Source: Pseudonocardia sp. SCN 73-27 | Lineage (GTDB): Bacteria; Actinomycetota; Actinomycetes; Mycobacteriales; Pseudonocardiaceae | Assembly: GCA_001725415.1 (NCBI GenBank) | Contig: MEGH01000026.1 | Span: 36,395 to 100,394 of the forward strand | Direction: 5' to 3' | DNA length: 64,000 nt | Shown here: piece after piece, positions 4,260 through 43,116 of the stretch | Layout: every line of letters starts with the position of its first letter | How positions within the stretch are numbered: position 1 is the first letter of the stretch | Notes under the pieces: model-generated | Told to the model about the DNA's origin: nothing | Database searches by the model: none | The model's input: the letters and a program-made list of their open reading frames with translations, nothing else | Translations under genes and position numbers: made by a program

Positions 4260-4408
4260 GCTGAACAACTCGGACCTACTGGCGCAACGCCCAGGCGGCA
4301 CCCTCGCGGCGTTGGGCAGGTGCGCCGATGCAACAGCGGTATCGGCGCACCTGCCCGCCTTGCGATCGCACCATCTGGAGCCGCTCGCTACGGCCGGAGT
4401 TGTTCAGC
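4260..4408. repeat. 149-bp nested inverted repeat with central 16-bp hairpin
   Basis: The outer arms GCTGAACAACTC (4260-4271) and GAGTTGTTCAGC (4397-4408) are perfect 12-bp inverted copies. Inside them, 4314-4329 and 4341-4356 form a perfect 16-bp stem with an 11-nt loop. The element fills the gap between the convergent glyS and CNNM genes, so it can act as a bidirectional terminator. The long-range terminal repeats are more than a terminator needs and give it a MITE-like layout. Confidence 0.7.
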
Positions 4409-28328: not shown

Positions 28329-28352
28329 GCGTGCGGGTGTGACGGGCCCCAC

Positions 28353-28379
28353 TGTCACAGGCGGCGCGGACGCGGCGTC
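28353..28379 (+). promoter_or_regulatory. ECF41-type autoregulatory promoter, perfect match
   Basis: TGTCACA (28353-28359), exactly 16 nt, CGTC (28376-28379). This is identical to the published ECF41 consensus and lies 25 nt before the GTG of the ECF41 gene, with AGGAGGA between. Confidence 0.88.
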
Positions 28380-28404
28380 TCATGGGCGTCGACAGGAGGA
28401 CCCC

Positions 28405-29280
28405 GTGACCGCCACCGCGTCGTTCGTCGCCCATCGCAACCTGCTCTTCACCGTCGCCTACGAGATGCTCGGCTCCGCCGCCGACGCGGAGGACGTCCTG
28501 CAGGAGACCTGGCTGCGCTGGGCCACCGTCGACCTCGCCGACATCCGCGACCACCGCGCCTACCTGGTGCGCATCACCACCCGCCAGGCCCTGACCCGGC
28601 TGCGGACCCTCGGCAGGCGCAAGGAGTCCTACGTCGGGTCATGGCTGCCCGAACCCCTGCTCACCACCCCCGACGTCGCCGACGACGTCGAGCTCGCCGA
28701 CAGCGTCTCGATGGCGATGCTGCTGGTCCTGGAGACCCTCGCGCCCCTCGAACGTGCTGTCTTCGTGCTGCGCGACGTGTTCGACGTGGGCTACGACGAG
28801 ATCGCCGAGGCCGTCGACAAGACCCCCGCGACCGTCCGGCAGATCGCCCACCGCGCCCGCGCGCACGTCGCCGCCCGCAGGCCTCGCGGCGTCGTCACCC
28901 AGGACGAGAGCCGCGGTGCCCTCGACGCCTTCCGCCGCGCCGTCGAGACCGGCGACCTGCAGGGACTGCTCGACGTCCTCGCCCCCGACGTCGTCCTCCT
29001 CGGCGACGGCGGCGGCATCAAGCAGGCGGTGCTGCGGCCCGTCGTCGGTGCCGACAAGGTCGGCCGGCTGCTCACCACCGGCTGGACCCGCGTCCCCGGG
29101 GAGGTCACCCTGGAACCGGTTCTGGTCAACGGCTACCCCGCGCTGGTGCTGCGTATCGACGGAGAGCTCGACAGCGTCGTCGCCCTGCGCATCGACGACG
29201 GCCGCGTCACCGGCCTCTACGCCGTCCGCAACCCGCAGAAGCTCTCGCACATGGACCGCGAGACCGCCCTGCGCCGCTGA
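28405..29280 (+). CDS. ECF41-family sigma factor with fused SnoaL-like domain
   Basis: 291 residues from the GTG at 28405, which follows CAGGAGGA and the perfect ECF41 promoter; a longer in-frame start would include the promoter. Region 2 is AYEMLGSAADAEDVLQETWL, the linker has WLPEPL, and region 4 is LAPLERAVFVLRDVFDVGYD with KTPATVRQIAHRAR. The C-terminal extension contains GDGGGIKQAVLRPVVG and RNPQKL, variants of the DGGGK and NPDKL motifs that tune activity in this group. The protein likely drives itself and the divergent AhpD-like gene. It is a paralogue of the sigma factor at 16056-16919. Confidence 0.93.
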   Translation: MTATASFVAHRNLLFTVAYEMLGSAADAEDVLQETWLRWATVDLADIRDHRAYLVRITTRQALTRLRTLGRRKESYVGSWLPEPLLTTPDVADDVELADSVSMAMLLVLETLAPLERAVFVLRDVFDVGYDEIAEAVDKTPATVRQIAHRARAHVAARRPRGVVTQDESRGALDAFRRAVETGDLQGLLDVLAPDVVLLGDGGGIKQAVLRPVVGADKVGRLLTTGWTRVPGEVTLEPVLVNGYPALVLRIDGELDSVVALRIDDGRVTGLYAVRNPQKLSHMDRETALRR

Positions 29281-29285
29281 GCGGT

Positions 29286-30029
29286 TCAGGCCGTGGGGGT
29301 GCGCGTCAGCTGCTCCGGGAGCGCGTTGATGAGGTCGGCGAAGACGCTGCGGATGTGCTCGCGACAGGCGGCCTCGGCCGCACCCGGGTCGCGCTTGGTG
29401 ATCGCGGTGACGATCTCCTCGTGCTGGCGCACGGATGCGTCGAGACGTCCCGGCACGCCGACCGTCAGGTTGCCCAGTCGTTCGAGGTGCAGGTCGAGCT
29501 CCACCAGCAGGCCGCCGATGCGGTGCCCGGCGGCCTGCCGGTAGAGGATGCGGTCGAACTCGTCGAAGAGGGCAGGAATCTCGTCGGTCGTGCCCTGGTC
29601 GAGGAGGGCGCGGCTACGCCGGACGTTGGCACGCAGGTCGGCCTCGTCGGACTCGTTGATCTGCATGGCGGCGCGCCGGGCGCAGAAGCCCTCGAGCAGT
29701 TCGCGCAGCTCGTAGATCTCGCGGACGTCGCCGTGGGAGTAGCCGCGAACGATCGCCCCCCGGTAGGGCGCGACGGTGACGAGCCCTTCCTTCTCCAGGC
29801 GCACGATGGCCTCGCGGATGGGTGTCTTGCTGACGCCCATCTGCTCTGCGAGCTGGCGTTCCCGCAACTGGCGGCCGGGTTCGAGCTCGAGCTCGACGAT
29901 GGCGCGCACGAGCCGCCGGTACACCACCTCCTTGATCTGGAGGTGGCTGTCCACGGAGGTGTCGAGCGGTGCGAGCCGCAGCCCCACGGACCCGTCGGGG
30001 GTCGGGGGCTCGAGTGCTGGCCTGGGCAT
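29286..30029 (-). CDS. GntR-family regulator, FCD type; candidate master of the 29-43 kb locus
   Basis: 247 residues. The winged helix reads LEPGRQLRERQLAEQMGVSK and TPIREAIVRLEKEGLVTVAP with wing YRGAIVRGYS. The FCD domain follows: REIYELRELLEGFCARRAAM, LFDEFDRILYRQAAGHRIGG, RQHEEIVTAI and ACREHIRSVF. FCD domains usually bind a metal through D and three H; the first H of the usual FH pair appears as D here, so metal binding may differ. It is 53 bp downstream of the amidase gene, probably the last gene of that operon and hence autoregulated. Four shared TTGAGATC[T/G]CA sites in the locus are its likely targets (inference). Confidence 0.9.
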   Translation of the reverse strand: MPRPALEPPTPDGSVGLRLAPLDTSVDSHLQIKEVVYRRLVRAIVELELEPGRQLRERQLAEQMGVSKTPIREAIVRLEKEGLVTVAPYRGAIVRGYSHGDVREIYELRELLEGFCARRAAMQINESDEADLRANVRRSRALLDQGTTDEIPALFDEFDRILYRQAAGHRIGGLLVELDLHLERLGNLTVGVPGRLDASVRQHEEIVTAITKRDPGAAEAACREHIRSVFADLINALPEQLTRTPTA

Positions 30030-30082: not shown

Positions 30083-31558
30083 CTACCTTGCACTCTCGGG
30101 TGCGTCCGGTCGCCCCCGGATCTCACCTGGTGGCCAGGCGACGGTGCGCAGGTTCGTGCGGACCAGCACGTCCTGGGCGTGTGCGGCGTAGCCGAGGACG
30201 CGCTCGTCGTGTCCCCACGGCCCGACGACCTGCACACCGGTGGGCATCGTCGGGCCCCCGAGACCGCAGGGCAGTGTGACGGCCGGCTGCCCGCTGATGT
30301 TGAACGGGTAGGTGTAGGGCGTCCAGGTGATCCACGGCAGCGGTGCGTCGCCCTCACCGCCCGGGGGGACCTCGGCGTCGGCCACGAACGCCGTGACCGG
30401 CATCGTCGGCATGACCAGCAGGTCCCATTCGTCGAGGAACCCGGCCATCGCGGCGTTGAACTCACGGCGCGCGGTGAGCGCCGCGTAGTAGTCGGCGAGG
30501 GAGTACTCCTCGGCGAGCGGGCCCAGCCGGACCAGCCCGGGGTCCATCTCGGACCCGCGCGAGCGGGCCAGCTCGCGGAAGCCCAGGCCGCGGCCGGTCA
30601 CCCACAGTGCCTCGAACACGCTGCGCGGCAGGTCTGCGGGCAGCGTGACCTCGTGGTGGTCGGCACGCCCGGACGCGACGAGCGCGTCGAGAGCGGGGTA
30701 CACGGACTCCGCGACGTCTCCGTCCGGGTCGATGCCGAAGGGGCTGCGGACGACGCCGATGCGCAGCCGGCGGCCACCGTCACCGGCCGGCGGGTTCGAC
30801 CAGTAGGACTGCGGGTCTCGCGCGTCGGGTCCGCGGGTCAGGGCGAGCACGGCGGCCGCGTCCCGGACGTCGCGCGTGATCGGTCCGGCGTGGGAGAGGT
30901 TCTCGTTCACGGTACCGGGCCAGACCGGGATGGCCCCGAGCGTCGGCTTGAGTCCGACGGCGCCGCAGAACGCCGCGGGGATGCGGACGGACCCGCCGGC
31001 GTCGGTCCCGGTGGCGATGGGCACGGCACCGCTGCCGACGGTGGCGCCCGACCCGGCGCTGGACCCGCCGGAGTTGCGGGCCGGGTCCCACGGGTTGCGG
31101 GTCACGCCCGTGCGCGGGGAGATGCCGGTGCCCTTCCAGCCGAACTCCGGTGTCGTGGTGCGGCCGATGACGACGGTGCCGGCCTCCAGCAGCCGTCCGA
31201 CCATCGGCGACGACGCCGCGGCGGGGGTGTCCGGGCTGGTCCGCGACCCCTTCCCGGCGGGCAGCCCCTCCTCGAGCATGTTGTCCTTCACCGCGATCGG
31301 GACACCGTGCAGGACGCTGCGGACCGTCCCGGCCCGGACCTCGGCCTCCCGCTCGACGGCGGCGGCGCGCGCCCGGTCGGGCAGCAATGTCGCGTAGGCG
31401 TTGATCGCGGGTTCGGCGTCGGCCGCGAGGTGCAGGGCCAGCTCGGCGAGGTGCACGGGGGAGAGCTCGCCGCCGGCCACCCGGCGGCCGAGTTCGAGGC
31501 CGCTCGCGGCGCGGTACTCGTCGACGGTGAGCTCGGTCAGCCGTGGGGAGGCGACCAT
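30083..31558 (-). CDS. Amidase-signature family hydrolase
   Basis: 491 residues from the ATG that overlaps the aminotransferase stop (ATGA). The Ser-cisSer-Lys triad is visible: Lys in PIAVKDNMLEEGLPAG, the Ser pair in ARNSGGSSAGSGATVGSG and TGTDAGGSVRIPAAFCGAVG followed by LKPTLG. The C-terminal half (PWITWTPYTYPFNISGQPAV) is typical of AtzF/GatA-like amidases. It should hydrolyse an amide or ureide to acid and ammonia in the cytoplasm. With the M20 hydrolase and the aminotransferase it forms one operon under the perfect TTTGAGATCTCAAA box. Substrate unknown. Confidence 0.93.
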   Translation of the reverse strand: MVASPRLTELTVDEYRAASGLELGRRVAGGELSPVHLAELALHLAADAEPAINAYATLLPDRARAAAVEREAEVRAGTVRSVLHGVPIAVKDNMLEEGLPAGKGSRTSPDTPAAASSPMVGRLLEAGTVVIGRTTTPEFGWKGTGISPRTGVTRNPWDPARNSGGSSAGSGATVGSGAVPIATGTDAGGSVRIPAAFCGAVGLKPTLGAIPVWPGTVNENLSHAGPITRDVRDAAAVLALTRGPDARDPQSYWSNPPAGDGGRRLRIGVVRSPFGIDPDGDVAESVYPALDALVASGRADHHEVTLPADLPRSVFEALWVTGRGLGFRELARSRGSEMDPGLVRLGPLAEEYSLADYYAALTARREFNAAMAGFLDEWDLLVMPTMPVTAFVADAEVPPGGEGDAPLPWITWTPYTYPFNISGQPAVTLPCGLGGPTMPTGVQVVGPWGHDERVLGYAAHAQDVLVRTNLRTVAWPPGEIRGRPDAPESAR

Positions 31559-32673
31559 CAGCGGGCCCCGGCGGGCGTCGACAGCGCGGACCAGGCCGCG
31601 GCGAAGCGCTCGGCCCACTCCTCCGGGACCGAGGTGCTGACCTTGACGAAACGTTCGCCGAAGCGTGGCGACTGGTAGGTGCCCGGCCGGATGAACACGT
31701 CGTGGTCGAGCATCGCGGCGCACAGGTCGTCGGCGGTCCAGCCGCTGTCGGCGACGTCGACGGCCACGAAGTTCCCGTGCGACGGCCACACGACCAGCCG
31801 CCCGAGGCCGCTGCGCTCGACCGCCGCGCGGACCGTCTCCTGGTTGCGGGTGTTGGTGGCACGCACCCGGGCGAGCCACTCGTCCTTCACGGTGAGCCCG
31901 GCGATCGCGGCGCGCTGAGCCGAGATGTTGGCGCCCAACGGGTTCGACGGCACCGCGGTCAGACGCCGGAGGAGCTCGGGCACGGCGACGACGGCTCCGA
32001 GCCGCAGTCCGGCCAGGCCGAGCCACTTGGAGAACGAGTAGGTGGTGAGCGTGCCCTCGGGGTACAGCTCGGCGGCCAGGGTGTGACCGGTCGCGAAGTG
32101 CCGGTAGGTGCAGTCGTGCACGACGAGCGACCCGGTCTCGCGGGCGAGGTCGGTGATGGCCGCGAGCTCGGCCCGGTCGTAGCGGCTGCCCAGCGGGTTG
32201 AGCGGATCGATGAGGTAGATCAGGGAGCGCGGCTCGATCACCGCGGCGATCTGGTCGGCGGTGACGCGGTAGCCCTGCTCGGCGGAGTACAGGTCCAGCG
32301 TCGTCGACGGCACGCCTTCGAGGCCGGCGAAGCGTGCGGGCCACGGCCAGCCCGGGTCGCTCGTGATGACCCGGGAGATCGAACCGGCCAACCCGGTGCA
32401 GATGTGGTGGAGCCCGCCGACGGCACCGTCGGTGATCCAGGCGTCGGCGCCGGTCAGCCCGAGATCCTCGACGATCATGCTGCGCAGCCGCTCGAAGCCG
32501 AGCGCGGGTGCGTAGAGCTGGAACTCGCGCCGTCGCGTGCTCTCCTCGAGTGCGGCGACGACCTCGGCGGGTGGTTCGAGGTGGGTGGTGTTCTGCCCCA
32601 TCCACGCCAGGTCGTCACGCGCGAGGAGGTGCTCGAACGAGGGAGCGGCGGTGCCGGTCGCCGGTGCGGTCAT
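31558..32673 (-). CDS. PLP-dependent aminotransferase class I/II
   Basis: 371 residues of the fold-type I aminotransferases. Landmarks: YAPALGFERLRSMI (arm), ITDGAVGGLHHICTGL, the NP motif in IDPLNPLGSRYD, the D...Y pair in VVHDCTYRHFA, and the Schiff-base Lys in YSFSKWLGLAGLRLGA. Near the end, where relatives keep an Arg for the substrate carboxylate, the text is FVKVSTSVPEEW, so that contact may be altered. It overlaps both neighbours by 4 nt (M20 upstream, amidase downstream), which gives fixed ratios. The amino donor and acceptor are not evident. Confidence 0.9.
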   Translation of the reverse strand: MTAPATGTAAPSFEHLLARDDLAWMGQNTTHLEPPAEVVAALEESTRRREFQLYAPALGFERLRSMIVEDLGLTGADAWITDGAVGGLHHICTGLAGSISRVITSDPGWPWPARFAGLEGVPSTTLDLYSAEQGYRVTADQIAAVIEPRSLIYLIDPLNPLGSRYDRAELAAITDLARETGSLVVHDCTYRHFATGHTLAAELYPEGTLTTYSFSKWLGLAGLRLGAVVAVPELLRRLTAVPSNPLGANISAQRAAIAGLTVKDEWLARVRATNTRNQETVRAAVERSGLGRLVVWPSHGNFVAVDVADSGWTADDLCAAMLDHDVFIRPGTYQSPRFGERFVKVSTSVPEEWAERFAAAWSALSTPAGAR

Positions 32674-33857
32674 CCCAGCAGCGCCAGGGTCGAGAACGCG
32701 GTGTAGACGCGGGTCGCCTCGACGATGTCGTCGACGGAGAGGTTCTCGTCGGGGCAGTACACGGGTTCGCCACCCGGACCGAAGATCACGGTGGGGATGC
32801 GGTCGCCGAAGCTCGCGGTGTCGCCGAGCCAGCCGGCGGCCTTCAGCGGGGGCTCGGTGCCGCGGACGTGGCGCACCGCGTCGACCATCGTCTGCACGAC
32901 CTGGCTGTGGGGGTCGGCGACGTAGGGCGACTTGACGTCGGCGAGCTCGACCGCGGCCTTGAACCGGGGGTCGGCACCGCGGACGGTGTCGAGGCACCGG
33001 TCCAGCTCGGCGCGCACCGTCTCGACGCTGACGCCGGGCTGTGGCCTGCAGTCGACGCGGATGACGCACTCGTCGGGAATCATCGACGGTCCGCCGGGCG
33101 GCAGCCCACCGTAGACGCGGCCGGGGGCCATGAAGGTCTCGTCCCCGAACAGGTCGCGCACCCATGGCTCGAGGTCCGGGGTGAGCCGGGAGGCGTCGAG
33201 CTCCAGGATCGCCTTGGCCGCCAGCATGTTCGCGTTGACGGCGATGGGTTTGTGGCAGGTGTGGGCGGACAGGCCCTGGGCGGTGACGTCGAAGTAGTAG
33301 CGGCCGCGGTGGCCGAGGTAGATCTCGTTGTCGGACAGCTCGCCGAGCACGCAGAGGTCGGCGGAGTACTCGTCGAAATAGCGGATCGACCCGATCTGGT
33401 CGCCCATGTGGTCGCTGACTCCGGCGAAGGCCAGCGTGCCGGCGACGGGGACGCCGGAGGCGCGGACGGCCTCGGCGGCCACGAGCTGGCAGACCAGCGC
33501 GGCCTTCATGTCCATGATCCCGTGGCCGTAGACGTGGCCGTCGATGAGCTCACCGCTGAACGGCTCGGTGACGGTCCAGCCGATCGAGGCGGGCTTGGTG
33601 TCGAGGTGCCCGGTCAGGACGACCCGGGGGCCGGCGCCGAAGTCGAGCTCGCCGATGGCGTTGGGGCGATCGGGCAGCACGTCCTGCAGGCGTACGTCGG
33701 TGAAGTCCGAGTCGTTCATGACGTCGACCAGGTACTTCGCGAACGCGAGCTCGTCGCCGAGGACGCTGGGGATGCGGCACACCTCCTGCACCAGGGACAC
33801 CACCCGGGCCTCGTCGATGCTCTCGAGGGCCTTGGCAACCGCGACTGACTTCTCCAT
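32670..33857 (-). CDS. M20-family amidohydrolase (ArgE/DapE-like) with unusual active-site segment
   Basis: 395 residues. The metal site starts well: VVLTGHLDTKPASIGWTVTE (H and D) and HVYGHGIMDMKAALVCQLVA (bridging Asp). At the place of the general-base and ligand Glu pair, normally xEE, the text is FAGVSDHMGDQIGSI, so both are replaced by D-H. The lid domain has LGHRGRYYFDVTAQGLSAHT, and the last ligand is near AAGWLGDTASFGDRIPTV. M20 enzymes cleave amide bonds of N-acyl amino acids, carbamoyl compounds or dipeptides. It is the first gene of the operon, after the perfect palindrome at 33873-33886. Confidence 0.9.
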   Translation of the reverse strand: MEKSVAVAKALESIDEARVVSLVQEVCRIPSVLGDELAFAKYLVDVMNDSDFTDVRLQDVLPDRPNAIGELDFGAGPRVVLTGHLDTKPASIGWTVTEPFSGELIDGHVYGHGIMDMKAALVCQLVAAEAVRASGVPVAGTLAFAGVSDHMGDQIGSIRYFDEYSADLCVLGELSDNEIYLGHRGRYYFDVTAQGLSAHTCHKPIAVNANMLAAKAILELDASRLTPDLEPWVRDLFGDETFMAPGRVYGGLPPGGPSMIPDECVIRVDCRPQPGVSVETVRAELDRCLDTVRGADPRFKAAVELADVKSPYVADPHSQVVQTMVDAVRHVRGTEPPLKAAGWLGDTASFGDRIPTVIFGPGGEPVYCPDENLSVDDIVEATRVYTAFSTLALLG

Positions 33858-33872
33858 TGCACCCCTACTCGA

Positions 33873-33886
33873 TTTGAGATCTCAAA
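33873..33886. promoter_or_regulatory. GntR-type operator, site 1
   Basis: TTTGAGATCTCAAA is a perfect 14-bp palindrome 15 bp before the M20 start. It shares TTGAGATCTCA with the site before the semialdehyde dehydrogenase. Confidence 0.75.
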
Positions 33887-34031
33887 GTTCAGTCCGTGCC
33901 CGCTCGCTTGTCAAGTGTGGAGTTCGCGCACGTCCTTGCACCTGAACAGAACAAATGTTGCGCGCCGGTTACACCACGACGGACGTCTTGACGTCCCGAT
34001 GCGACCTCCGACACGATCGTTCGACCAAGAA

Positions 34032-34050
34032 TGCGATCTCAAGATCTCAG
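34032..34050. promoter_or_regulatory. GntR-type operator, site 2
   Basis: TGCGATCTCAAGATCTCAG; read on the minus strand it is CTGAGATCTTGAGATCGCA. It matches site 4 at 17 of 19 positions and shares TTGAGATCGCA with site 3. It lies 41 bp before the importer lipoprotein. Confidence 0.7.
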
Positions 34051-34091
34051 CCGCCCCCGGCTGGGCTCGATCGCAGGTTGAGGAGAACCTG

Positions 34092-35120
34092 ATGATCCGA
34101 TCGGCCACTCGGCTGGCACGGCGCGGCGTACTCGCTCTTCCCGTCGCCGCCGCGGTCCTGGCGCTGAGCGCGTGCTCCGGTGGAGGTGGCGCCGACAGCG
34201 GCGGCACGGCCTCACCCGGCTCGTCCGCCGCACCCACGAAGGTCGGCGTGGTGCTCGCCGGGCCGCGCAACGACAAGGCCTTCTACCAGTCCTACCTGGA
34301 CGGGGTGCAGGCCGTGGCCGCCAAGGAGGGCATGACGGTGTCGGTGGTCGACAACGTCAACTCCCCGCAGGCGGCGATCGACGCGCTGACCAACCTCGCC
34401 GCGGACAACCAGCTGATCATCGCGGGCGGCAGCTCGCTCGTCTCCGCCGGCAACACGGTCGCTGCGCAGTTCCCCGACGTCACGTTCGTGATGTCCGGGG
34501 TGGTCCAGACGGGCGTCGCCAACCTGCACACCTACGCGACGAAGCAGGGCGTTCCCGCCTACGTCGCCGGCGTCGTCGCGGCGCAGGAGAGCGCCTCGGG
34601 CTCGATCGGCTACGTCGGCGGCACCGACATCCCGCCGAACTCGCAGTCGTCGATCGACTTCGCGGCCGGCGCCAAGTCGGTCAAGCCCGAGGTCAAGGTG
34701 GCGTCGGTGACGGTCGGGTCGCTCAGTGACGCGGCCAAGGCGAAGGAGGCGACGGCCGCGCAGATCGCGAACGGCGCCGACGTCATCTACGCCTTCCAGG
34801 ACGCGGGCCTGCCCGGTGTGCTCGACGCGGTCAAGGAGTCGGGCAAGACCGTGAAGGTCTTCAACCCGACGACCGACCGCTGCGACGAGTCACCGGCCCT
34901 GATCGGCTACGCGTTCCAGGACACCCGGGTGATGGTCGGGCACATCCTCGAGGACTACAAGGCGGACAAGCTCCCGGCCCAGCCGCGCTTCTACGCCCTC
35001 GACGACCCGTCGGTGCAGGCGCTCAAGCTCTGCCCGGGCAACGACAAGTACCAGGCCGTCGTCACCGAGACGACCAACAAGATCAACTCCGGCGCGATCA
35101 CGATGCCCCAGGGCGGGTGA
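34092..35120 (+). CDS. BMP-family ABC importer substrate-binding lipoprotein
   Basis: 342 residues. A signal of the lipoprotein type is clear (RRGVLALPVAAAVLALSAC, Cys at about 28), followed by a Gly/Ser linker. The binding domain is of the PnrA/BMP family: KVGVVLAGPRNDKAFYQSYL, DNQLIIAGGSSLVSAGNTVA, PDVTFVMSG, and QESASGSIGYVGGTDIPP. Members bind purine nucleosides or related molecules outside the membrane. The three next genes encode the matching ATPase and two permeases. The ATG is preceded by GAGGAGAA. The operon start carries operator site 2. Confidence 0.93.
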   Translation: MIRSATRLARRGVLALPVAAAVLALSACSGGGGADSGGTASPGSSAAPTKVGVVLAGPRNDKAFYQSYLDGVQAVAAKEGMTVSVVDNVNSPQAAIDALTNLAADNQLIIAGGSSLVSAGNTVAAQFPDVTFVMSGVVQTGVANLHTYATKQGVPAYVAGVVAAQESASGSIGYVGGTDIPPNSQSSIDFAAGAKSVKPEVKVASVTVGSLSDAAKAKEATAAQIANGADVIYAFQDAGLPGVLDAVKESGKTVKVFNPTTDRCDESPALIGYAFQDTRVMVGHILEDYKADKLPAQPRFYALDDPSVQALKLCPGNDKYQAVVTETTNKINSGAITMPQGG

Positions 35121-36670
35121 CGGTGTCGGCCGACACTCCGGGCGACGTCCCGGCCGACGGTGCCGCCGCGGCGGCGCTGTCGGTCCGGGGCGTGACCAAG
35201 ACCTACGGCGCCCTCGTCGCGAACGACGCGGTCGACCTCGACGTCCGGCCCGGCGAGATCCTCGCGCTGCTCGGCGAGAACGGCGCCGGCAAGTCGACGC
35301 TGGTCAAGGTGCTGTCGGGACTGGTGAACCCGGACGCCGGCGCGGTCGTCGTCGATGGCCGGACGCTGCCTCCCGGCGACCCGGAGGCGGCCCGGGCAGC
35401 CGGGGTGGGGGTCGTGCACCAGCACTTCATGCTCGTGCCGGACATGACCGCGACGGAGAACGTCGCGCTCTCGCAGGGCTCGCGCGCGGGTCGGCGGTTC
35501 GACGCCGCCGGCACCCGGGCCCGCCTGCTGGAGCTGAGCGAACGGCACAGCATGCCCGTGCGTCCGGACGTCCCGGTCGAGCTGCTGCCGGTGGGGGAAC
35601 GGCAGCGGATCGAGATCCTCAAGTGCCTGCTCGGCGACGCCAGGGTGCTCCTGCTCGACGAGCCGAGCGCCGTGCTGTCACCGGTCGAGTGGGACCGGCT
35701 CGCCGTCGTCCTGGAGGAGCTCGCTTCCCAGGGGCTGGCGATCGTGCTGATCACCCACAAGCTGGGTGAGATCGCCGCCGTCGCGGACCGGTGCACGGTC
35801 ATGCGCGGCGGAAAGGTCGTCGCCACCGTCCGGGTGGGGGACACCGCGCCGGAGGAGCTGGCCCGGATGATGGTCGGTCGCGACGTGGTGCTGCGGACCG
35901 AGCGGCCCGTCGTCGCGGCCGGTCCGGTCGTGCTCGAGGCGACGGGGCTGACGATGGCCGGCTACCGCGGCGACCGCGACCTCGGGCCCGTCGACCTCAC
36001 CGTTCGTGCGGGTGAGGTCCTGGGCGTGGCGGGTGTGGAGGGCAACGGCCAGAGCGAGCTCGCCGACCTGCTCGCGGGCGTCCGTACCCCGACCACCGGG
36101 TCGGTGCGGGTGACGGCCCGCGGCGGCGGGCCCGGACGGACCGGTGTGATCGCCGAGGACCGGCAGGCCGACGGCCTGGCGCTACCGCTCTCGGTGTCGG
36201 ACAACCTGATGATGCGGGTCGTCGGCGACGAGGAGTTCAGCCGTCGCGGGGTGCTGCGGCAGGGCCGGATCCGCCGGCACTGCACCGAACGTGTCGAGAG
36301 TTTCGGGGTCCGCACAGCGGGACTGGAGACGCCCGTCGAGAGCCTCTCGGGCGGCAACCAGCAGAAGATCGTCCTGGCCCGCGAGCTCTACGGGGACCCG
36401 GACCTGCTGATCGCGGCCCAGCCGACGCGGGGACTCGACGTCGGGGCGATCGAGTTCGTCCACGCCCAGATCAACGCGCACAAGACCGCGGGTGGGGCGA
36501 CCGTGCTGTTCTCCGCCGAGCTCGACGAGATCTTCGCACTGTCGGACCGGATCGCGGTGATGTCCGGCGGCCGGATCGTCGCGGTCCTCACCGCCGACGA
36601 GGCGACCCGCGACCGGGTCGGCGAGCTGATGACGGCGGTCAACGGTGCCCGAGAGCAGGTGCGACCATGA
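35117..36670 (+). CDS. Importer ATPase with two ABC domains (nucleoside/sugar type)
   Basis: 517 residues from a GTG overlapping the previous TGA. NBD1 has Walker A LLGENGAGKSTLVKVL, a weak signature LLPVGERQRIEILKCL and Walker B VLLLDEPSAVLSPVE. NBD2 has a degenerate P-loop VAGVEGNGQSELADLL and an intact signature LSGGNQQKIVLARELY with LLIAAQPTRGLDVG. One degenerate site is normal for RbsA/NupA-type fusions. It energises uptake through the two permeases that follow with 4-nt overlaps. Confidence 0.95.
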   Translation: MTVSADTPGDVPADGAAAAALSVRGVTKTYGALVANDAVDLDVRPGEILALLGENGAGKSTLVKVLSGLVNPDAGAVVVDGRTLPPGDPEAARAAGVGVVHQHFMLVPDMTATENVALSQGSRAGRRFDAAGTRARLLELSERHSMPVRPDVPVELLPVGERQRIEILKCLLGDARVLLLDEPSAVLSPVEWDRLAVVLEELASQGLAIVLITHKLGEIAAVADRCTVMRGGKVVATVRVGDTAPEELARMMVGRDVVLRTERPVVAAGPVVLEATGLTMAGYRGDRDLGPVDLTVRAGEVLGVAGVEGNGQSELADLLAGVRTPTTGSVRVTARGGGPGRTGVIAEDRQADGLALPLSVSDNLMMRVVGDEEFSRRGVLRQGRIRRHCTERVESFGVRTAGLETPVESLSGGNQQKIVLARELYGDPDLLIAAQPTRGLDVGAIEFVHAQINAHKTAGGATVLFSAELDEIFALSDRIAVMSGGRIVAVLTADEATRDRVGELMTAVNGAREQVRP

Positions 36671-37752
36671 ACCGACAGGCGCTTCGCGGCGCGGCGGTGA
36701 GCGTGCTGGCCGTCGTCCTGGCGCTGGCGGCGTCGCTGCTGGTCATCGCGCTCACCGGGGCCCCCATCGGCAAGGCCGCCGCCGCGATGTGGGACGGGGT
36801 GTTCGGCAGCCCGGCGCAGTTCGGGGCGACGCTGACCAAGTTCGTGCCGCTCGTGCTCGCGGCGATCGGCTGGGTGGTCGCATCCCGTGCGGGCCGGCTC
36901 AACGTCGGACTCGAGGGCCAGATCCTCGCCGGCGGGACGACCGCCGCCGTCGTCGGGCTCTACCTGACCGGCCTGCCGACGGTGCTGCACCTGACCATCG
37001 CCGTACTCGCGGGCGCGGTCGGCGGTGCGCTGCTCGGCGGGGTGGCCGCGTGGCTGTGGGCCCGTCGCGGCGTCAACGACTTCATCGCGACGCTGCTGCT
37101 CACGCTGATCATGACCCAGGTCGTGTCGTGGCTGGCCAACGGCCCGATGGAGGAACCGACCGGCACGCTGGGCCAGAGCTCGCCCGTCGCCGACACCGCC
37201 CGCTGGCCCGTGCTGCTGCCGAGGACGACGCTGCGCACCGACATCATCATGGTGATCATCATCGTCCTGCTCGCGGCATACGTGCTGCGCCGCACCGTCG
37301 TCGGTTACCGGCTGCGGCTGACCGGCGCGAACGCCGACGCCGCCCGGGCCACCGGTACGCGGACGACGGTCGTCGGTGTCGGTGCCCTGTGCGCGTCGGC
37401 CGCCATCGCCGGCATCGCCGGGTCCTCGTTGGTGCTGGCAGCACCGGCCGCCAACCTGGCGCCCGGCTTCTCCGCGGGCTACGGGTTCGACGGCATCGTC
37501 GTCGCGCTGCTCGCCCGCAACTCTCCGCTCGCCTGCATCCCGGCCGCACTGCTGCTCGCGGCGCTCCGGCAGGGAGGCGGTCTGCTCGAGGCCCGTGTCG
37601 GGATCTCGTCGGGGCTGGTGACGGCGACCCAGGCCGTCGTGATCCTGCTGGTCACCGGAACTGCCTGGTACGCGGAACGGCGCCGGTCGAGGCCACGGCC
37701 ACCCGGTACCTCCGATGTCCCCGCGCCGGTCGCGGAAGGGGTGCGCTCGTGA
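36667..37752 (+). CDS. ABC importer permease 1 (NupB/BmpC type)
   Basis: 361 residues with about nine or ten hydrophobic segments, starting GAAVSVLAVVLALAASLLVI. The family mark is the block WVVASRAGRLNVGLEGQILA, near residue 80, which contacts the ATPase. Later VNDFIATLLLTLIMTQVV and YGFDGIVVALLARNSPLACI are typical of nucleoside-type permeases. It forms a heterodimer with the permease encoded next, whose GTG overlaps its stop. The last 25 residues are a hydrophilic tail. Confidence 0.93.
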   Translation: MNRQALRGAAVSVLAVVLALAASLLVIALTGAPIGKAAAAMWDGVFGSPAQFGATLTKFVPLVLAAIGWVVASRAGRLNVGLEGQILAGGTTAAVVGLYLTGLPTVLHLTIAVLAGAVGGALLGGVAAWLWARRGVNDFIATLLLTLIMTQVVSWLANGPMEEPTGTLGQSSPVADTARWPVLLPRTTLRTDIIMVIIIVLLAAYVLRRTVVGYRLRLTGANADAARATGTRTTVVGVGALCASAAIAGIAGSSLVLAAPAANLAPGFSAGYGFDGIVVALLARNSPLACIPAALLLAALRQGGGLLEARVGISSGLVTATQAVVILLVTGTAWYAERRRSRPRPPGTSDVPAPVAEGVRS

Positions 37753-38831
37753 ACCCGTTCGACGTCGCGCTGTTCGCCGCCGCGATCCGGCTCTCGGTCC
37801 CGCTGCTGCTCGCCGCGCTCGGTGAGCTCATCTCCGAACGCGGCGGCGTGATCAACATCGGCCTCGAGGGCATGATGCTCTTCGGTGCCTACGGTGCGTT
37901 CATCACGGCGTGGGCCACCGGGAGCGTGAGCCTGGGGCTGGCCGCGGGGATCACGCTCGGCCTGCTGACCGCGTCGATCATGGCGCTGGTCTCCGTGACA
38001 CTGCGTGGCGACCAGATCGTCGTCGGTGTCGCGTTGAACCTGCTGGCCGCGGGCGTGACGATGTTCCTCTACCGCCTGCAGTTCCAGGGCACACAGCCCA
38101 CGACGGTCCGAATGGAGCCGTACGCGGTGCCGCTGCTCTCCGACATTCCGGGGATCGGCCCGGTGCTGTTCGACCAGCTCCCGCTCGTCTACTTCGCGTA
38201 CGTGCTCGGCCCGGTCGTGGCCTACATGCTGTTCCGGACCCGCGGGGGTCTGCGCGTGCGGTCGGCGGGAGAGAAGCCCGAGGTGCTCGACTCCACGGGT
38301 GTGAACGTCGTGCGCGTGCAGTGGAGCGGCGTGCTGGCCGCGGGCGGCCTGGCCGGGCTCGCGGGAGCGTTCCTGTCGGTCGGGCAGGTGGGGCTCTTCG
38401 CCGAGAACATGACGGCCGGGCGTGGCTTCCTCGCGCTGGCCGCGGTCGTGTTCGGCCAGTGGCGGCCCTACGGCGTCGTCGCGGCGTGTCTCGTCTTCGG
38501 GTTCACCGACGCCCTCCAGCTGCGCCTGCAGTCGATGGGCGAGGTGCCCCGCGAGGTGTGGATTTCGCTCGTCGTCGTCGGGGTGCTGGTCGCGGCGGCC
38601 GGGGTGTGGCGGGCCCGGCGGTCCGGATCGCCGCTGCGCTGGATGCTGCTCGGCGCGATGCTCTGCGTCGTCGCCGGCGGCCTCGGGACGGCGCTGCTGC
38701 CGAGCTTCGTGCTGCCGTCGCAGTTCTGGCTGAGCCTGCCCTATGTGCTCAGCCTGATCGCCCTGGCGACGTCCGCACGCGGTGTGCGCGCACCGGCGAT
38801 GGTCGGGCGACCGCTGCCCTCGCGCGGCTGA
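37749..38831 (+). CDS. ABC importer permease 2 (NupC/BmpD type)
   Basis: 360 residues from a GTG overlapping the previous TGA. It starts NPFDVALFAAAIRLSVPLLL and carries GELISERGGVINIGLEGMML, the ATPase-contact motif of this family, then DQIVVGVALNLLAAGVTMFL and AENMTAGRGFLALAAVVFGQ. Compared with usual members it has extra C-terminal TM segments (LRWMLLGAMLCVVAGGLG and QFWLSLPYVLSLIALATS). It ends the importer operon at a perfect 16-bp hairpin. Confidence 0.93.
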   Translation: MNPFDVALFAAAIRLSVPLLLAALGELISERGGVINIGLEGMMLFGAYGAFITAWATGSVSLGLAAGITLGLLTASIMALVSVTLRGDQIVVGVALNLLAAGVTMFLYRLQFQGTQPTTVRMEPYAVPLLSDIPGIGPVLFDQLPLVYFAYVLGPVVAYMLFRTRGGLRVRSAGEKPEVLDSTGVNVVRVQWSGVLAAGGLAGLAGAFLSVGQVGLFAENMTAGRGFLALAAVVFGQWRPYGVVAACLVFGFTDALQLRLQSMGEVPREVWISLVVVGVLVAAAGVWRARRSGSPLRWMLLGAMLCVVAGGLGTALLPSFVLPSQFWLSLPYVLSLIALATSARGVRAPAMVGRPLPSRG

Positions 38832-38840
38832 CGTCCACGA

Positions 38841-38875
38841 CAGAGGCCCCGCAGCCGACGGCTGCGGGGCCTCTG
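38841..38875. terminator. Bidirectional terminator, 16-bp perfect stem
   Basis: CAGAGGCCCCGCAGCC pairs fully with 38860-38875 around a 3-nt loop. It lies between the convergent permease gene (stop 38831) and the LLM gene (stop 38887). Confidence 0.9.
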
Positions 38876-38886
38876 CGTGTCGTGGG

Positions 38887-39894
38887 TCAGGGGGCGACGT
38901 GCCCCTCCTCCCGCAGGCACTCGGCGAACGCCGTGATCGTCGCGAGGCGGCTGTCCGCGTCCCCGCCGATCGGGAACACAGCCATGCTGTCGATGCCCAG
39001 CTTGTCGAGCGTGCGGATGTGCTCCCGCGTCGCAGCCCGGTTGCCCGACAACGACATCCGGCGCACGAAGTCGTCGGGGAGCAGCTCGGCCGCCTTCGCC
39101 GCCTCCTGGAACTCCCCGCCCGCGTACTGCGCGCGGACCTGCTCGACCAGCTCGGGGGACAGACCCGCCAGTCCGCAGTAGACCGGCGCGGTCATCGGGA
39201 ACCAGGCCGCGATGGTGCGGCCCGCCGCCAGGGCGACGTCCTCGTCCTCGTCGATGGCGCCGTAGGCGAACACGGTGATCGCGGGCCTGCTCGACCGGCC
39301 GGCCATGTCGACACCGCGGTCGATGTGCTCCAGGGCGTAGGTGAGCCCGTCCGGATGCAGGCCGGCCAGCAGGACGACACCGTCGGCGACCCGCCCGGCC
39401 AGCTCGAGCGTCTTCGGCCCGCTCGCCGAGATGTAGACGGGGATGTCGGGACGCGACGGGAACCGCAGGTGGGCGTCGTCGAGGGTGAACCCGCGGGCCT
39501 GCATGTCGACGGTCTCGCCCGTCCACAGCCGCCGCGCGGCGACGATCGAGTCCTCCAGCAGCGCGAGCTTTGCGGGCTTCAGACCGAGGGCGTCGAGCGG
39601 CCGGTCGCCGGCGCCGATGCCGTAGACCGCACGGCCACCGGAGATCTCGTCGATCGTCGAGATGCCGACGGCGGCCAGCGCAGGGTGGCGCGTCACCGGG
39701 TTGGTGACGGCCGTGCCCAGCCGCAGCCGCTCGGAGTTCACGGCGGCGAGGGTCAGGTAGGAGTAGCAGTAGCGGGAGTGCAGCGAGGAGTCGGTGAGCC
39801 ACAGGTCGGCGATGCCGACCCGCTCCACGTGCTCGACCATCGAGATGAACTGGTCCGGTGCGTAGACCGGCTGGAGGGCGACGCCGCCGTACAT
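38887..39894 (-). CDS. LLM-class oxidoreductase (F420 or flavin) of the GntR locus
   Basis: 335 residues of luciferase-like barrel. It starts YGGVALQPVYAPDQFISMVE and has GIADLWLTDSSLHSRYCYSY, RLGTAVTNPVTRHPALAAVG, STIDEISGGRAVYGIGAGDR and PVYISASGPKTLELAGRVAD. The ISGGR and GxGAGD segments are typical of F420-dependent methylene-H4MPT reductase-like enzymes. It lies 31 bp downstream of the amidohydrolase gene, so both are probably one transcript from site 3. In the pathway it would oxidise or reduce a ring or imine intermediate (inference). Confidence 0.88.
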   Translation of the reverse strand: MYGGVALQPVYAPDQFISMVEHVERVGIADLWLTDSSLHSRYCYSYLTLAAVNSERLRLGTAVTNPVTRHPALAAVGISTIDEISGGRAVYGIGAGDRPLDALGLKPAKLALLEDSIVAARRLWTGETVDMQARGFTLDDAHLRFPSRPDIPVYISASGPKTLELAGRVADGVVLLAGLHPDGLTYALEHIDRGVDMAGRSSRPAITVFAYGAIDEDEDVALAAGRTIAAWFPMTAPVYCGLAGLSPELVEQVRAQYAGGEFQEAAKAAELLPDDFVRRMSLSGNRAATREHIRTLDKLGIDSMAVFPIGGDADSRLATITAFAECLREEGHVAP

Positions 39895-39925
39895 GGCTTC
39901 GGGCCTTTCGTGGTCGGGGGCGGGC

Positions 39926-41341
39926 TCAGATGACGGGCCATGCCGGGCTCGGGTCGATGCCGATCTTGTTGAGGATGCGACGGTCGGTGGCCTCGACCTC
40001 CTCGCGCAGCGCGTCCTCGTCGAACACCGTGCTCTTCTTGTTCTCCAGTACGACCTCGCCGCCGATGAGGACGGTGTCGACGGAGTGCCCGGTGACGCCG
40101 TAGGCGAGGTTGGCGATCGGGTTGTGCAGCGGCCGCCAGTCGTAGTCGTCGGTGTCGAAGACGACGATGTCGGCCTGCTTGCCGGGCTCCAGCGAGCCGG
40201 TCACGTCGTCGAAGCGCAGCGCGCGGGCGCCTCCGAGGGTGCCCAGCTCGACCGCGGTCTCGGCGCTGACCGCGCCGGGGTCCTCGCGGGCGTCGCGGGG
40301 GAGCAGGGCCGCGAGGTAGATGGCGCGGCAGATGTCCTGGTGGTTGGAGCAGTTCTCCGCGTCGGTACCCAGACCCATCGGCACGCCGGCCGCGACGAGC
40401 TCGGGGAAGCGGCTGTGCTGGGTCGTGCCCTTGGCCAGCTTCAGCGCGGTGCTCGGGTTCCACGAGACGGTCGCGCCGCTGTCGGCGATGGCGGCGACGT
40501 CGTCGGCGTCCAGGCTCGTGACGTGGTTGAGCAGCGTGTACTCGTTGAGCGCCTTGATGCTCGCGGTGTGCTTGACGGGCCGCTCCCCGAACACCTTGAG
40601 CTCCAGCTCGACCTCGCGCTGGCTCGTCGACTTGTGCTGCACCGCCAGCGTCCGCGACTCCTCGGCGAGGCGCGCGGCGGCCACGGTGAGCTCGTCGGAG
40701 CACGTCGTGACGCCCTCGACGCACACAGCCGGTCGGATGCGCGCGTTGCCGAACGCCTGCACGGTCGCGAGGCCGTCCTCCAGCCGGCGGATCGCGGCCG
40801 CGGTGTCGAGCCGCAGCCAGTCGGGCAGCCCGTCGGACCCGCCCGACCCGCGCTGGTCCCACGTCCACAGGCCGATGCGCGCCCGCATGCCGGACTCGGC
40901 GATCGCGGGCAGCACGGCGTCGATGTGATTGCAGCCCGGCTCCTCGAACAGCGTGGTGCCGTTGCGGATCATCTCCGCGGTGGCGTGCCGGGCGTAGACG
41001 TTCATGTCCTCGGGCTCCAGCGAGGAGAACGAGGGATAGATGAAGCGCCGCAACGACTGCAGTGTCGTGCCGCCTTCGGGCATCGCACCCTTCGCGCAGC
41101 ACAGCAGGTGCCGGTGCCCGTTGGCCATGCCGGGCAGGACGACCGAGTCGGGCCGGTCGATGCGGCGGGCCGGGGTGAACTCGCGGTCGAGGTCGGCGGC
41201 CTTGCCGACGGCGACGATCGTGTCGCCGGTGACGGCAATGCCACCGTCGCGCAGGATCCTCCGGTCGGCGTCGACCGTGATCACCCACGCGGCCGTCACC
41301 AGGAGGTCGCAGGGACGAGCAGTTCCGGCGGGGTCGGTCAT
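39926..41341 (-). CDS. Amidohydrolase of the chlorohydrolase/guanine-SAH deaminase group
   Basis: 471 residues. The metal-dependent hydrolase signs are in order: LPGMANGHRHLLCC (HxH), LAVQHKSTSQREVELE (third His), LNHVTSLDADDVAAIADSG (fourth His region) and GLGTDAENCSNHQDICR (Asp). The C-terminal strand block is SLEPGKQADIVVFDTDDYDW. Relatives (AtzA/TrzN, MtaD, SsnA) remove ammonia or a halide from purine, triazine or pyrimidine rings. It starts 24 bp after operator site 3 and is followed by the LLM gene. A nitrogen-heterocycle substrate fits the nucleoside-type importer next door (inference). Confidence 0.9.
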   Translation of the reverse strand: MTDPAGTARPCDLLVTAAWVITVDADRRILRDGGIAVTGDTIVAVGKAADLDREFTPARRIDRPDSVVLPGMANGHRHLLCCAKGAMPEGGTTLQSLRRFIYPSFSSLEPEDMNVYARHATAEMIRNGTTLFEEPGCNHIDAVLPAIAESGMRARIGLWTWDQRGSGGSDGLPDWLRLDTAAAIRRLEDGLATVQAFGNARIRPAVCVEGVTTCSDELTVAAARLAEESRTLAVQHKSTSQREVELELKVFGERPVKHTASIKALNEYTLLNHVTSLDADDVAAIADSGATVSWNPSTALKLAKGTTQHSRFPELVAAGVPMGLGTDAENCSNHQDICRAIYLAALLPRDAREDPGAVSAETAVELGTLGGARALRFDDVTGSLEPGKQADIVVFDTDDYDWRPLHNPIANLAYGVTGHSVDTVLIGGEVVLENKKSTVFDEDALREEVEATDRRILNKIGIDPSPAWPVI

Positions 41342-41364
41342 GCGGTCTCCCTCGACGTCGAGAC

Positions 41365-41376
41365 TTGAGATCGCAA
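41365..41376. promoter_or_regulatory. GntR-type operator, site 3
   Basis: TTGAGATCGCAA, 24 bp upstream of the amidohydrolase ATG. It shares 11 bases (TTGAGATCGCA) with the minus strand of site 2. Confidence 0.65.
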
Positions 41377-41530
41377 ACCTGACTCACCAGCGGACCCCCT
41401 GTCAAGAGGCCATCCGCCACCGGTCGCACGGGACGGGCCAGTTCGCGTCGACGTCGCACGTTAAGAGCGTGTTACAGCAGCTCAGTGGCCCGATAGCCTG
41501 CCGGTTTGTTGTCAGGCGCACGTGAAAGAC

Positions 41531-41558
41531 CTAGATGAGATCTTGAGATCTCATCTAG
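41531..41558. promoter_or_regulatory. GntR-type operator, site 4 (28-bp palindrome)
   Basis: CTAGATGAGATCT and AGATCTCATCTAG are perfect 13-bp inverted arms around TG. The core TGAGATCTTGAGATCTCA matches site 2. It lies 43 bp before the semialdehyde dehydrogenase ATG. Confidence 0.8.
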
Positions 41559-41601
41559 GATCGACGAACTCGCACCCGCTCGCCATCGAGGAGAGTCGCG
41601 C

Positions 41602-43116
41602 ATGACCGTCACGACGCCCGCGCCCGCCGCCGCGCTCCACCACTGGGCCGGCGGAGCACCCGTGGACGGGGAGTCGGGCCGGTTCGCCGACGTCACCGAC
41701 CCCGCCACGGGCGCGACGACGGCGCGGGTGCCTCTCGCGTCCGCCGACGATGCCGCGCGCGTCATCGCGACCGCCCGTGCAGCGTTCCCCGCGTGGCGCG
41801 ACGCGTCCCTCGCCCGCCGCAGCAAGGTCCTCTTCGCGTTCCGCGCCCTCCTCGACGCCCGCGCCGACGAGCTCGCGCAGATCATCACGGCCGAGCACGG
41901 CAAGGTCCTCGCAGACGCGGCGGGGGAGGTCGCGCGCGGTCTCGAGGTCGTCGAGTTCGCATGCGGCATGCCGCACCTGCTCAAGGGGTCGGCGACCGAG
42001 AACGCCTCCACGAACGTCGACGTCGCCTCGATCCGGCAGCCGCTGGGCGTCGTCGCCGTCATCTCGCCGTTCAACTTCCCCGCGATGGTCCCGATGTGGT
42101 TCTTCCCCATCGCGATCGCCGCCGGCAACACGGTCGTGCTCAAGCCGTCGGAGAAGGTCCCCGGCGCGGCGCTCTGGCTCGCGCGGCTCTGGCAGGAGGC
42201 CGGGTTGCCGGACGGTGTGTTCAACGTGCTCAACGGGGACAAGGAGGCCGTCGACGCGCTGCTCACCAGCCCCGATGTGGCCGCGGTGTCCTTCGTCGGC
42301 TCGACGCCCGTCGCACAGTACGTCCACCGCACCGCGTCCGAGCACGGCAAGCGGGTCCAGGCGCTCGGCGGCGCGAAGAACCACATGGTCGTGCTGCCCG
42401 ACGCCGACCTCGACCTCGCCGCCGACCAGGCTGTGAACGCCGGCTTCGGCTCCGCGGGCGAGCGGTGCATGGCCATCTCCGCGGTCGTCGCCGTCGGCGA
42501 CGTCGCCGACCGGCTCGTCGCCGCGATCACCGACCGCGCCCGCGCCCTGCGCACCGGCGACGGCCGCCGCGGCACGGACATGGGTCCGCTCGTCACCCGC
42601 GCCGCGCTCGACCGCGTCACCAGTTACATCGAGGCAGGTCGACAGGCCGGGGCCACGCTCGCCCTCGACGGCCGGACCGCGCGCTACGACGCCGACGGAG
42701 ACGGATTCTTCGTCGGACCCACACTGTTCGACCACGTCACCACCGACATGTCGATCTACACCGACGAGATCTTCGGGCCTGTGCTGTCGGTGCTGCGCGT
42801 CGACACCTACGACGAGGCCCTCACCCTGGTCAACCGCAACCCGTACGGCAACGGCACCGCGATCTTCACCCATGACGGCGGCGCGGCCCGACGTTTCCAG
42901 AACGAGGTCGAGGTCGGCATGGTCGGCATCAACGTGCCGGTCCCCGTGCCCATGGCCTACTACTCGTTCGGCGGCTGGAAGAGCTCCCTGTTCGGCGACA
43001 CCCACGCCCACGGGACCGACGGCGTGCACTTCTACACCCGCACCAAGGTCGTGACGACGCGCTGGCCCGACCCCTCCCACCGCGGCGTCGACCTCGGCTT
43101 CCCGCGCAACGCCTGA
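41602..43116 (+). CDS. mmsA: CoA-acylating methylmalonate/malonate-semialdehyde dehydrogenase
   Basis: 504 residues, the MmsA length. The NAD site has GVVAVISPFNFPAMVPMWFF (the MmsA-typical PFNFPAMVP), VVLKPSEKVPGAA and VSFVGSTPVAQYVH. The catalytic Cys is in NAGFGSAGERCMAISAVVAV and the Glu of hydrolytic ALDHs is replaced by the MmsA pattern ALGGAKNHMVVLPDA. MmsA turns malonic or methylmalonic semialdehyde into acetyl- or propionyl-CoA with release of CO2. In this locus it is a plausible last step after the aminotransferase makes a semialdehyde. The gene begins after the 28-bp palindrome and GAGGAGAG. Confidence 0.93.
   Translation: MTVTTPAPAAALHHWAGGAPVDGESGRFADVTDPATGATTARVPLASADDAARVIATARAAFPAWRDASLARRSKVLFAFRALLDARADELAQIITAEHGKVLADAAGEVARGLEVVEFACGMPHLLKGSATENASTNVDVASIRQPLGVVAVISPFNFPAMVPMWFFPIAIAAGNTVVLKPSEKVPGAALWLARLWQEAGLPDGVFNVLNGDKEAVDALLTSPDVAAVSFVGSTPVAQYVHRTASEHGKRVQALGGAKNHMVVLPDADLDLAADQAVNAGFGSAGERCMAISAVVAVGDVADRLVAAITDRARALRTGDGRRGTDMGPLVTRAALDRVTSYIEAGRQAGATLALDGRTARYDADGDGFFVGPTLFDHVTTDMSIYTDEIFGPVLSVLRVDTYDEALTLVNRNPYGNGTAIFTHDGGAARRFQNEVEVGMVGINVPVPVPMAYYSFGGWKSSLFGDTHAHGTDGVHFYTRTKVVTTRWPDPSHRGVDLGFPRNA

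Follow-up and report, generated by a model that had tools for sequence, protein, structure and literature searches.

Genes and boxes of the locus

We analysed a 64,000-nucleotide stretch of contig MEGH01000026.1 from Pseudonocardia sp. SCN 73-27 (the window, to whose positions all coordinates refer unless they carry a contig or locus prefix), in which four related boxes precede the transcription units of a catabolic and uptake cluster and are very probably the operators of the FCD-type GntR regulator encoded there. The M20 operon, on the minus strand, starts with an M20 (ArgE/DapE-like) deacylase (32670-33857; PF01546, E 1.5e-21; TIGR01910 below its cut-off) and continues with a pyridoxal phosphate-dependent class I/II aminotransferase (31558-32694; NF004870, 392 bits, cut-off 351), an amidase-signature hydrolase (30083-31561; PF01425, E 1.4e-85) and gntR (29286-30029). 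The GntR protein has an N-terminal winged helix (PF00392, E 2.5e-18, 65.9 bits, cut-off 27) and a C-terminal FCD effector domain (PF07729, E 7.7e-25, 88.2 bits, cut-off 24.3). Divergently, on the plus strand, runs the BMP importer operon, which encodes a BMP-type substrate-binding lipoprotein (34092-35120; PF02608, E 1.2e-35), an ABC importer ATPase (35117-36670; PF00005, E 3.9e-44) and two permeases (36667-37752, NF047929, and 37749-38831, NF047928, both below cut-off).

The second divergent pair consists of a TRZ/ATZ-type, deaminase-like amidohydrolase (39926-41341; PF01979, E 3.6e-34) with an LLM-class flavin/F420-type oxidoreductase (38887-39894; PF00296, E 2.2e-48), both on the minus strand, and of mmsA on the plus strand (41602-43116; PF00171, E 1.1e-148), which encodes a (methyl)malonate-semialdehyde dehydrogenase (MMSDH) that matches the solved MMSDH 9q0d with an E-value of 3.5e-188. 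Among solved chains, the BMP protein comes closest to the atrazine periplasmic binding protein (6pi5, E 1.7e-21), and the best NCBIfam matches of the amidohydrolase are 5'-deoxyadenosine deaminase, TRZ/ATZ hydrolase and 8-oxoguanine deaminase, all below cut-off. Enzyme identities are given at family level, the best NCBIfam matches of the amidase, M20, importer, LLM and amidohydrolase proteins lying below their cut-offs.

Among the genes identified between 29.3 and 43.1 kb, gntR is the sole regulator gene, as an earlier note on this DNA, made from its letters and open reading frames, had claimed. Tail to tail with gntR lies a gene for an ECF sigma factor (28339-29280), the C-terminal part of which has a weak SnoaL-like match. 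Such a gene is found near gntR in this genome and in Pseudonocardia sp. N23 only; at >35% identity none was found near gntR in P. thermophila, P. autotrophica, P. halophobica or P. kujensis, and the contig of Amycolatopsis acidicola ends too early to judge.

The four boxes can be read directly at the places before M20, BMP, amidohydrolase and mmsA at which the earlier note had put them. Box 1 (TTTGAGATCTCAAA, 33873-33886, without strand), 15 bp from the M20 ATG, forms a perfect palindrome of 14 bp and is a candidate operator of the M20-aminotransferase-amidase-gntR operon; as a GntR operator it would make GntR autoregulated. Box 2 (TGAGATCTTGAGATCGCA, 34032-34049, minus strand) is a candidate double-type operator of the BMP importer operon and lies 42 bp from the BMP ATG. 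Box 3 (TTGAGATCGCAAA, 41365-41377, plus strand), with TTGAGATCGCA at 41365-41375, is a candidate operator of the amidohydrolase-LLM pair, 23 bp from the amidohydrolase ATG. Box 4 (CCTAGATGAGATCT-TG-AGATCTCATCTAGG, 41530-41559, without strand), the candidate operator of mmsA, is a perfect inverted repeat of 30 bp in which 8 bp separate the two AGATCT cores, and mmsA begins 42 bp further on. The perfect symmetry of sites 1 and 4 and the identity of sites 2 and 4 at 17 of 19 bases agree with the earlier note, which also placed site 4 correctly but gave it an extent 2 bp shorter than the true repeat.

Rarity of the box motif

The window has exact TGAGATCKCA at 4 places (6 strand matches); shuffled sequence averaged 0.13 matches, and none of 100 shuffles reached 6. 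When two mismatches were allowed the window held 16 matches against a shuffle mean of 12.24, and 17 of 100 shuffles reached 16, which is no enrichment; two mismatches thus erase the signal and only the tight motif is meaningful. Across the whole genome (6,952,598 bases), exact TTGAGATCKCA gave 5 strand matches, all of them at the four boxes, and the reversed-pattern control gave 0. These four exact places fall within one 7.7-kb stretch, each before a gene or operon, so that the boxes are not frequent throughout the genome, as a local regulon of the kind proposed in the earlier note presupposes. With one mismatch there are 27 strand matches in the genome against 11 for the control. Eighteen such places (19 strand matches) lie outside the window, 14 of them inside an open reading frame (ORF) that passes a coding-composition filter and the other four at L079, L080, L088 and L089. 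A one-mismatch match is also present at window position 4360.

Clusters of boxes in genomes lacking the gntR orthologue were considered as further regulons and rejected. In genome G223, four boxes in 300 bp lie near another FCD-like GntR gene (33% identity). By eye, this region (L064:7650-8200), between converging ORF ends, resembles an array of degenerate repeats with TGAGATCTCAA among them, at spacings of 74-75 bp (two) and 135, and was rejected for that reason. Four palindromes with near-identical flanks in genome G013 were rejected as ribosomal leader elements, since TTGAGATCTCAA lies about 112 bp before 16S rRNA at both loci scanned (L065:4026-4037 and L068:4002-4013). In the genome of strain SCN 73-27, a related TTGAGTTCTCAA with flanks similar to those in G013 occurs at C27:146, near a contig end.

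Boxes and gntR in related genomes

Orthologues of gntR are rare, being found in 5 of 297 genomes of the family (E 1e-40) and in 6 of 62 of the genus (E 1e-30), own genome included. A full gntR is present in six other genomes, namely those of Pseudonocardia sp. N23, P. kujensis, P. halophobica, P. autotrophica, P. thermophila and A. acidicola; ten further, distant matches were left out. In all seven gntR-bearing genomes, own included, the gene lies inside the cluster, and in the six others the boxes are kept before the orthologous genes, as the note's reading implied. Exact TTGAGATCKCA occurs at 22 locations in these seven genomes (overlapping strand matches counted once), 20 of which are in this locus and the other two at G270:C139 and G298:C78. 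A TGA in the A. acidicola gntR match was considered as a possible break and rejected, being the end of the protein.

P. sulfidoxydans has a C-terminal fragment of gntR only. At this place (L016:9940-10180) a single deletion appears to fuse the end of gntR to the start of mmsA; the importer, the enzymes and the boxes, box 4 included, are gone, and the genome has one exact TTGAGATCKCA.

Two genomes speak for a link between box and gntR. In A. acidicola, the second box of the amidohydrolase spacer faces a divergent PF02133 permease (cytosine/purine/uracil/thiamine/allantoin; E 9.3e-43; L060:8539-9948, minus strand), at a place taken by other genes in Pseudonocardia. The cluster of this species is without a BMP importer, the search for one having covered the cluster, and its run from the amidohydrolase to gntR includes a GMC oxidoreductase and an aldehyde dehydrogenase (L060:12595-15504, plus strand). 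The second case is G438, a genome of another family in the same order, which keeps the amidohydrolase (64% identity) and the whole BMP importer (46-58%) at L098:676-7034. The 20 kb read around them contained no box and nothing that matched gntR, M20, aminotransferase or amidase. G438 was the only new genome from a search for amidohydrolase relatives at strict E-values, which found 2 of 348 genomes in the order (own included) and 1 of 396 in the phylum (own).

The boxes also stand out within aligned spacers. In the M20/BMP spacer of four genomes (own, N23, P. thermophila and P. autotrophica), invariant columns number 30 of 32 within the boxes and 75 of 202 elsewhere, and adding P. kujensis changes this to 29 of 32 against 75 of 202. 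Box 1 is invariant at 14/14 columns in the four genomes and at 13/14 with P. kujensis, and box 2 at 16/18 columns in five genomes; among windows of equal length, 1 of 221 is as conserved as box 1 (box 1 itself) and 3 of 217 are as conserved as box 2. The boxes stand out less in the amidohydrolase/mmsA spacer, where, in six genomes including A. acidicola, the count of invariant columns is 22 of 31 inside the boxes and 29 of 229 outside them, and where windows equal or better number 9 of 248 for box 3, 21 of 243 for the full 18-bp box 4 and 6 of 250 for its 11-bp core. Box 3 is identical in four of the five other genomes, A. acidicola having ATGAGATCTCAAA, and TTGAGATCTCAT of box 4 is likewise kept in four of the five others; P. 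thermophila has CTGAGATCTCAT, and the other half of its site is degenerate too.

Predicted promoters and GlnR-type boxes

For the M20 operon, consensus and conservation together predict a promoter TTGACA-17 nt-TGAACT (33886-33914, minus strand) that runs into box 1, and a putative amidohydrolase promoter, TTGACA-17 nt-TCAGGT (41377-41405, minus strand), runs into box 3 in the same way. TTGACA precedes the first box base by 23 nt in 10 of 11 cases (five genomes on the M20 side and six on the amidohydrolase side), the exception being A. acidicola, and this constant spacing brings the box up against the predicted -10 hexamer or into overlap with it. The first box bases at the 23-nt spacing are TTG, in P. 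kujensis TTA. On the BMP side the candidate promoter is TTGACG-17 nt-ACACGA (33988-34016, plus strand), with box 2 starting 15 nt on; it is found in 5/5 genomes (P. thermophila with AGACGA), the box following 14-15 nt later. On the mmsA side, TTGAC in the half-spacer before the box was seen only in A. acidicola, 1 of 6 genomes. Since the -10 hexamers match weakly, the promoters are given as predictions; judged by these arrangements, the box positions would suit a repressor acting at the start point or as a roadblock.

Both divergent spacers also carry, near their centres, a GlnR-type nitrogen box, which the earlier note did not contain. An excerpt of PMC10704036 gives the GlnR box as gTnAc-n6-GaAAc in Streptomyces coelicolor and as t/gTAAC-n6-Gc/aAAC in Mycobacterium smegmatis. 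The M20/BMP spacer has GTAAC-n6-GCAAC (33957-33972, minus strand), an exact M. smegmatis form, and the amidohydrolase/mmsA spacer GTAAC-n6-TTAAC (41460-41475, minus strand), with one mismatch. GTNAC-n6-GNAAC with at most one mismatch is present at the same aligned place in all 11 spacers examined, 8 of them exact, a count that is partly post hoc because the motif was seen in the alignment before testing. The exact cases are four of five genomes for the M20/BMP spacer and four of six for the other; as background, the same pattern has 22 matches on both strands of the 64-kb window.

In the own genome the looser GlnR form gave 89 strand matches against 27 for the control, and the M. smegmatis form 6 exact matches against 1. 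These six include the M20/BMP spacer, a site upstream of glnA, one upstream of a Peripla_BP_6 periplasmic binding protein and one elsewhere in the own genome between another FCD GntR gene and a divergent amidase (L130:2512-2527; C16:50311-50326). The M20/BMP spacer is likewise among the exact M. smegmatis-form matches of N23 (4 in total) and of genome G203 (9 in total). With such a box central in each divergent spacer, nitrogen starvation probably activates both promoter pairs.

Discussion

The earlier note's proposal of one GntR regulon across four units is supported by the uniqueness of the boxes in the genome, by their conservation together with gntR in six genomes and by the boxless locus of G438, which keeps the amidohydrolase and importer and has no gntR match. 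We consider it very likely that the FCD-type GntR has its operators in the four boxes, in a strictly local regulon of four transcription units with ligand-released repression and probable activation by GlnR. That the boxes are operators of one local regulator is almost certain, and that regulator is most likely this GntR. Occupying the four boxes, GntR would most likely act as a repressor that a ligand releases. At the M20 and amidohydrolase promoters it would sit on a box at the predicted -10 or start point, and at the BMP promoter on a box just downstream, as a roadblock. GlnR would activate both divergent promoter pairs from mid-spacer under nitrogen starvation, with GntR adding substrate specificity.

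Several observations weigh against this reading. The close Pseudonocardia loci are not independent events, those of P. halophobica and P. autotrophica being nearly identical. The rule is also imperfect: site 1 of P. kujensis has one base changed and, which counts only mildly, site 4 of P. thermophila is degenerate with no mmsA behind it. At least one exact TTGAGATCKCA occurs in 140 of 297 family genomes, gntR orthologues having been found in only five of them, so that single box matches are to be taken as background; among the matches listed, a genome with no gntR match (G117:C1:3370621-3374541) has two exact TTGAGATCGCA boxes 3.9 kb apart. For the nitrogen layer, two of the six M. smegmatis-form matches adjoin genes without an assignable nitrogen role, and no exact match to that form lies in the spacers of P. 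thermophila (8 matches genome-wide) or of A. acidicola, where the match on the contig lies within the permease ORF. Lastly, the core TGAG-AT-CTCA is unlike TKGT...ACMA (2-3 nt between GT and AC), to which, according to excerpts of Suvorova et al. 2015 (PMC4494728), most sites of the FadR subfamily conform.

This unusual core is what favours the best surviving alternative, that the boxes serve another regulator, encoded elsewhere, and that gntR is a mere passenger of its operon. The same excerpts name NanR and BioR of the FadR subfamily as exceptions, which makes the consensus usual and not necessary. GntR also resembles its subfamily where the palindrome lies, the conserved box 1 heading the operon that ends in gntR. 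Residues R58, T69, P70 and Y89, placed by counting at specificity positions described in the excerpts, are invariant in five orthologues. According to the excerpts of PMC4494728, a proline at position 40 of that scheme disfavours G/C at site position 6/14, and the box has A/T there if TGAG is laid on TKGT, a fit that lends weak support. The gntR gene stays in the cluster in all seven genomes, its ECF sigma neighbour, by contrast, not having been found close to it in four of the six others; the G438 locus lacks both a gntR match and boxes; and the near absence of exact boxes elsewhere in these genomes suits a local regulator, not a global one. We therefore regard a regulator encoded elsewhere as unlikely.

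A role of the boxes within the promoter, as an extended -10 element or as a sigma-factor site, would explain why those of the M20 and amidohydrolase sides begin directly after the predicted -10 at constant spacing. On the BMP side, however, every genome compared has its own conserved -35/-10 pair with the box 14-15 nt further downstream, the boxes are palindromic, and most one-mismatch places outside the window are within ORFs, all of which makes this explanation very improbable. RNA hairpins in 5' leaders (attenuators or stability elements), to which the 30-bp inverted repeat of site 4 might point, are the least credible candidate, as it is the primary sequence of the core that has been conserved, the long arms of site 4 differing from species to species, and as one box type precedes genes of either orientation and coincides with the predicted start on two sides.

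The proposed operators also bear on the pathway, since as a set they define its genes (three hydrolases, aminotransferase, LLM oxidoreductase, mmsA and importer) better than gene order alone. Our best guess at the substrate, with the chances about evenly split, is an aminated N-heterocycle used as a nitrogen source, based on the TRZ/ATZ amidohydrolase, the atrazine-binding-like BMP protein, mmsA, the NCS1-type permease of A. acidicola and the GlnR-type boxes. Such a compound would be taken up and deaminated, and breakdown of the ring fragments would end at (methyl)malonate semialdehyde. With its different importer, A. acidicola restricts the candidate substrates to compounds that may be carried by transporters of the BMP and of the NCS1 type alike. 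It is an evenly balanced possibility that the cluster represents an undescribed N-heterocycle scavenging pathway of the Pseudonocardiaceae, controlled at two divergent promoter pairs by an FCD GntR with the non-canonical operator TTGAGATCTCAA and by GlnR, and with an exchangeable importer (a BMP ABC system for an NCS1-type permease), a box standing before either.

In the open-licence literature, no box was among the matches listed for TTGAGATCTCAA with GntR, the match for TTGAGATCTCAA alone concerns nematode drug resistance, and TGAGATCTCA with 'regulator' listed no bacterial-regulator title. This system appears in no title retrieved for Pseudonocardia GntR regulons, for pyrimidine catabolism with GntR, amidohydrolase and MMSDH, or for GlnR with GntR and purine. 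In kind, a local FCD regulon is ordinary; what is new is its bounded membership, its non-canonical core and a likely nitrogen layer. It amounts to a bounded and testable regulon, in which a single regulator has four operators in a 7-Mb genome and nitrogen control is predicted as a second input, and its core adds a data point for the operator code of FCD regulators.

Comparison with known systems

The transport and enzyme genes recall the AtzT and TRZ/ATZ systems, the BMP protein having the atrazine binding protein as its nearest solved relative and the amidohydrolase being of TRZ/ATZ type, a likeness that is one of sequence similarity over part of the protein. According to an excerpt of PMC6834077, on AtzT, the atrazine binding protein was found with guanine bound.

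With the local repressors of the FadR (FCD) subfamily, as described in the excerpts of PMC4494728, the locus shares the GntR and FCD domains, palindromic sites beside the regulator's own operon and a divergent arrangement with one site near each operon. Site 4, with its paired AGATCT cores, and the similarly built site 2 are reminiscent of the extra half-sites that the same source reports 7-12 nt from the palindrome centre of GntR-family sites. The core TGAG-AT-CTCA sets the boxes apart from most sites of the subfamily.

The nitrogen boxes, for their part, are 5+6+5 direct repeats like those of the actinobacterial GlnR regulon in the excerpt of PMC10704036, with the exact M. smegmatis form in the M20/BMP spacer, and the same motif finds glnA in this genome. 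The difference from that regulon is the setting, an uncharacterised catabolic cluster in which GlnR, if it binds as predicted, would be joined with a local GntR.

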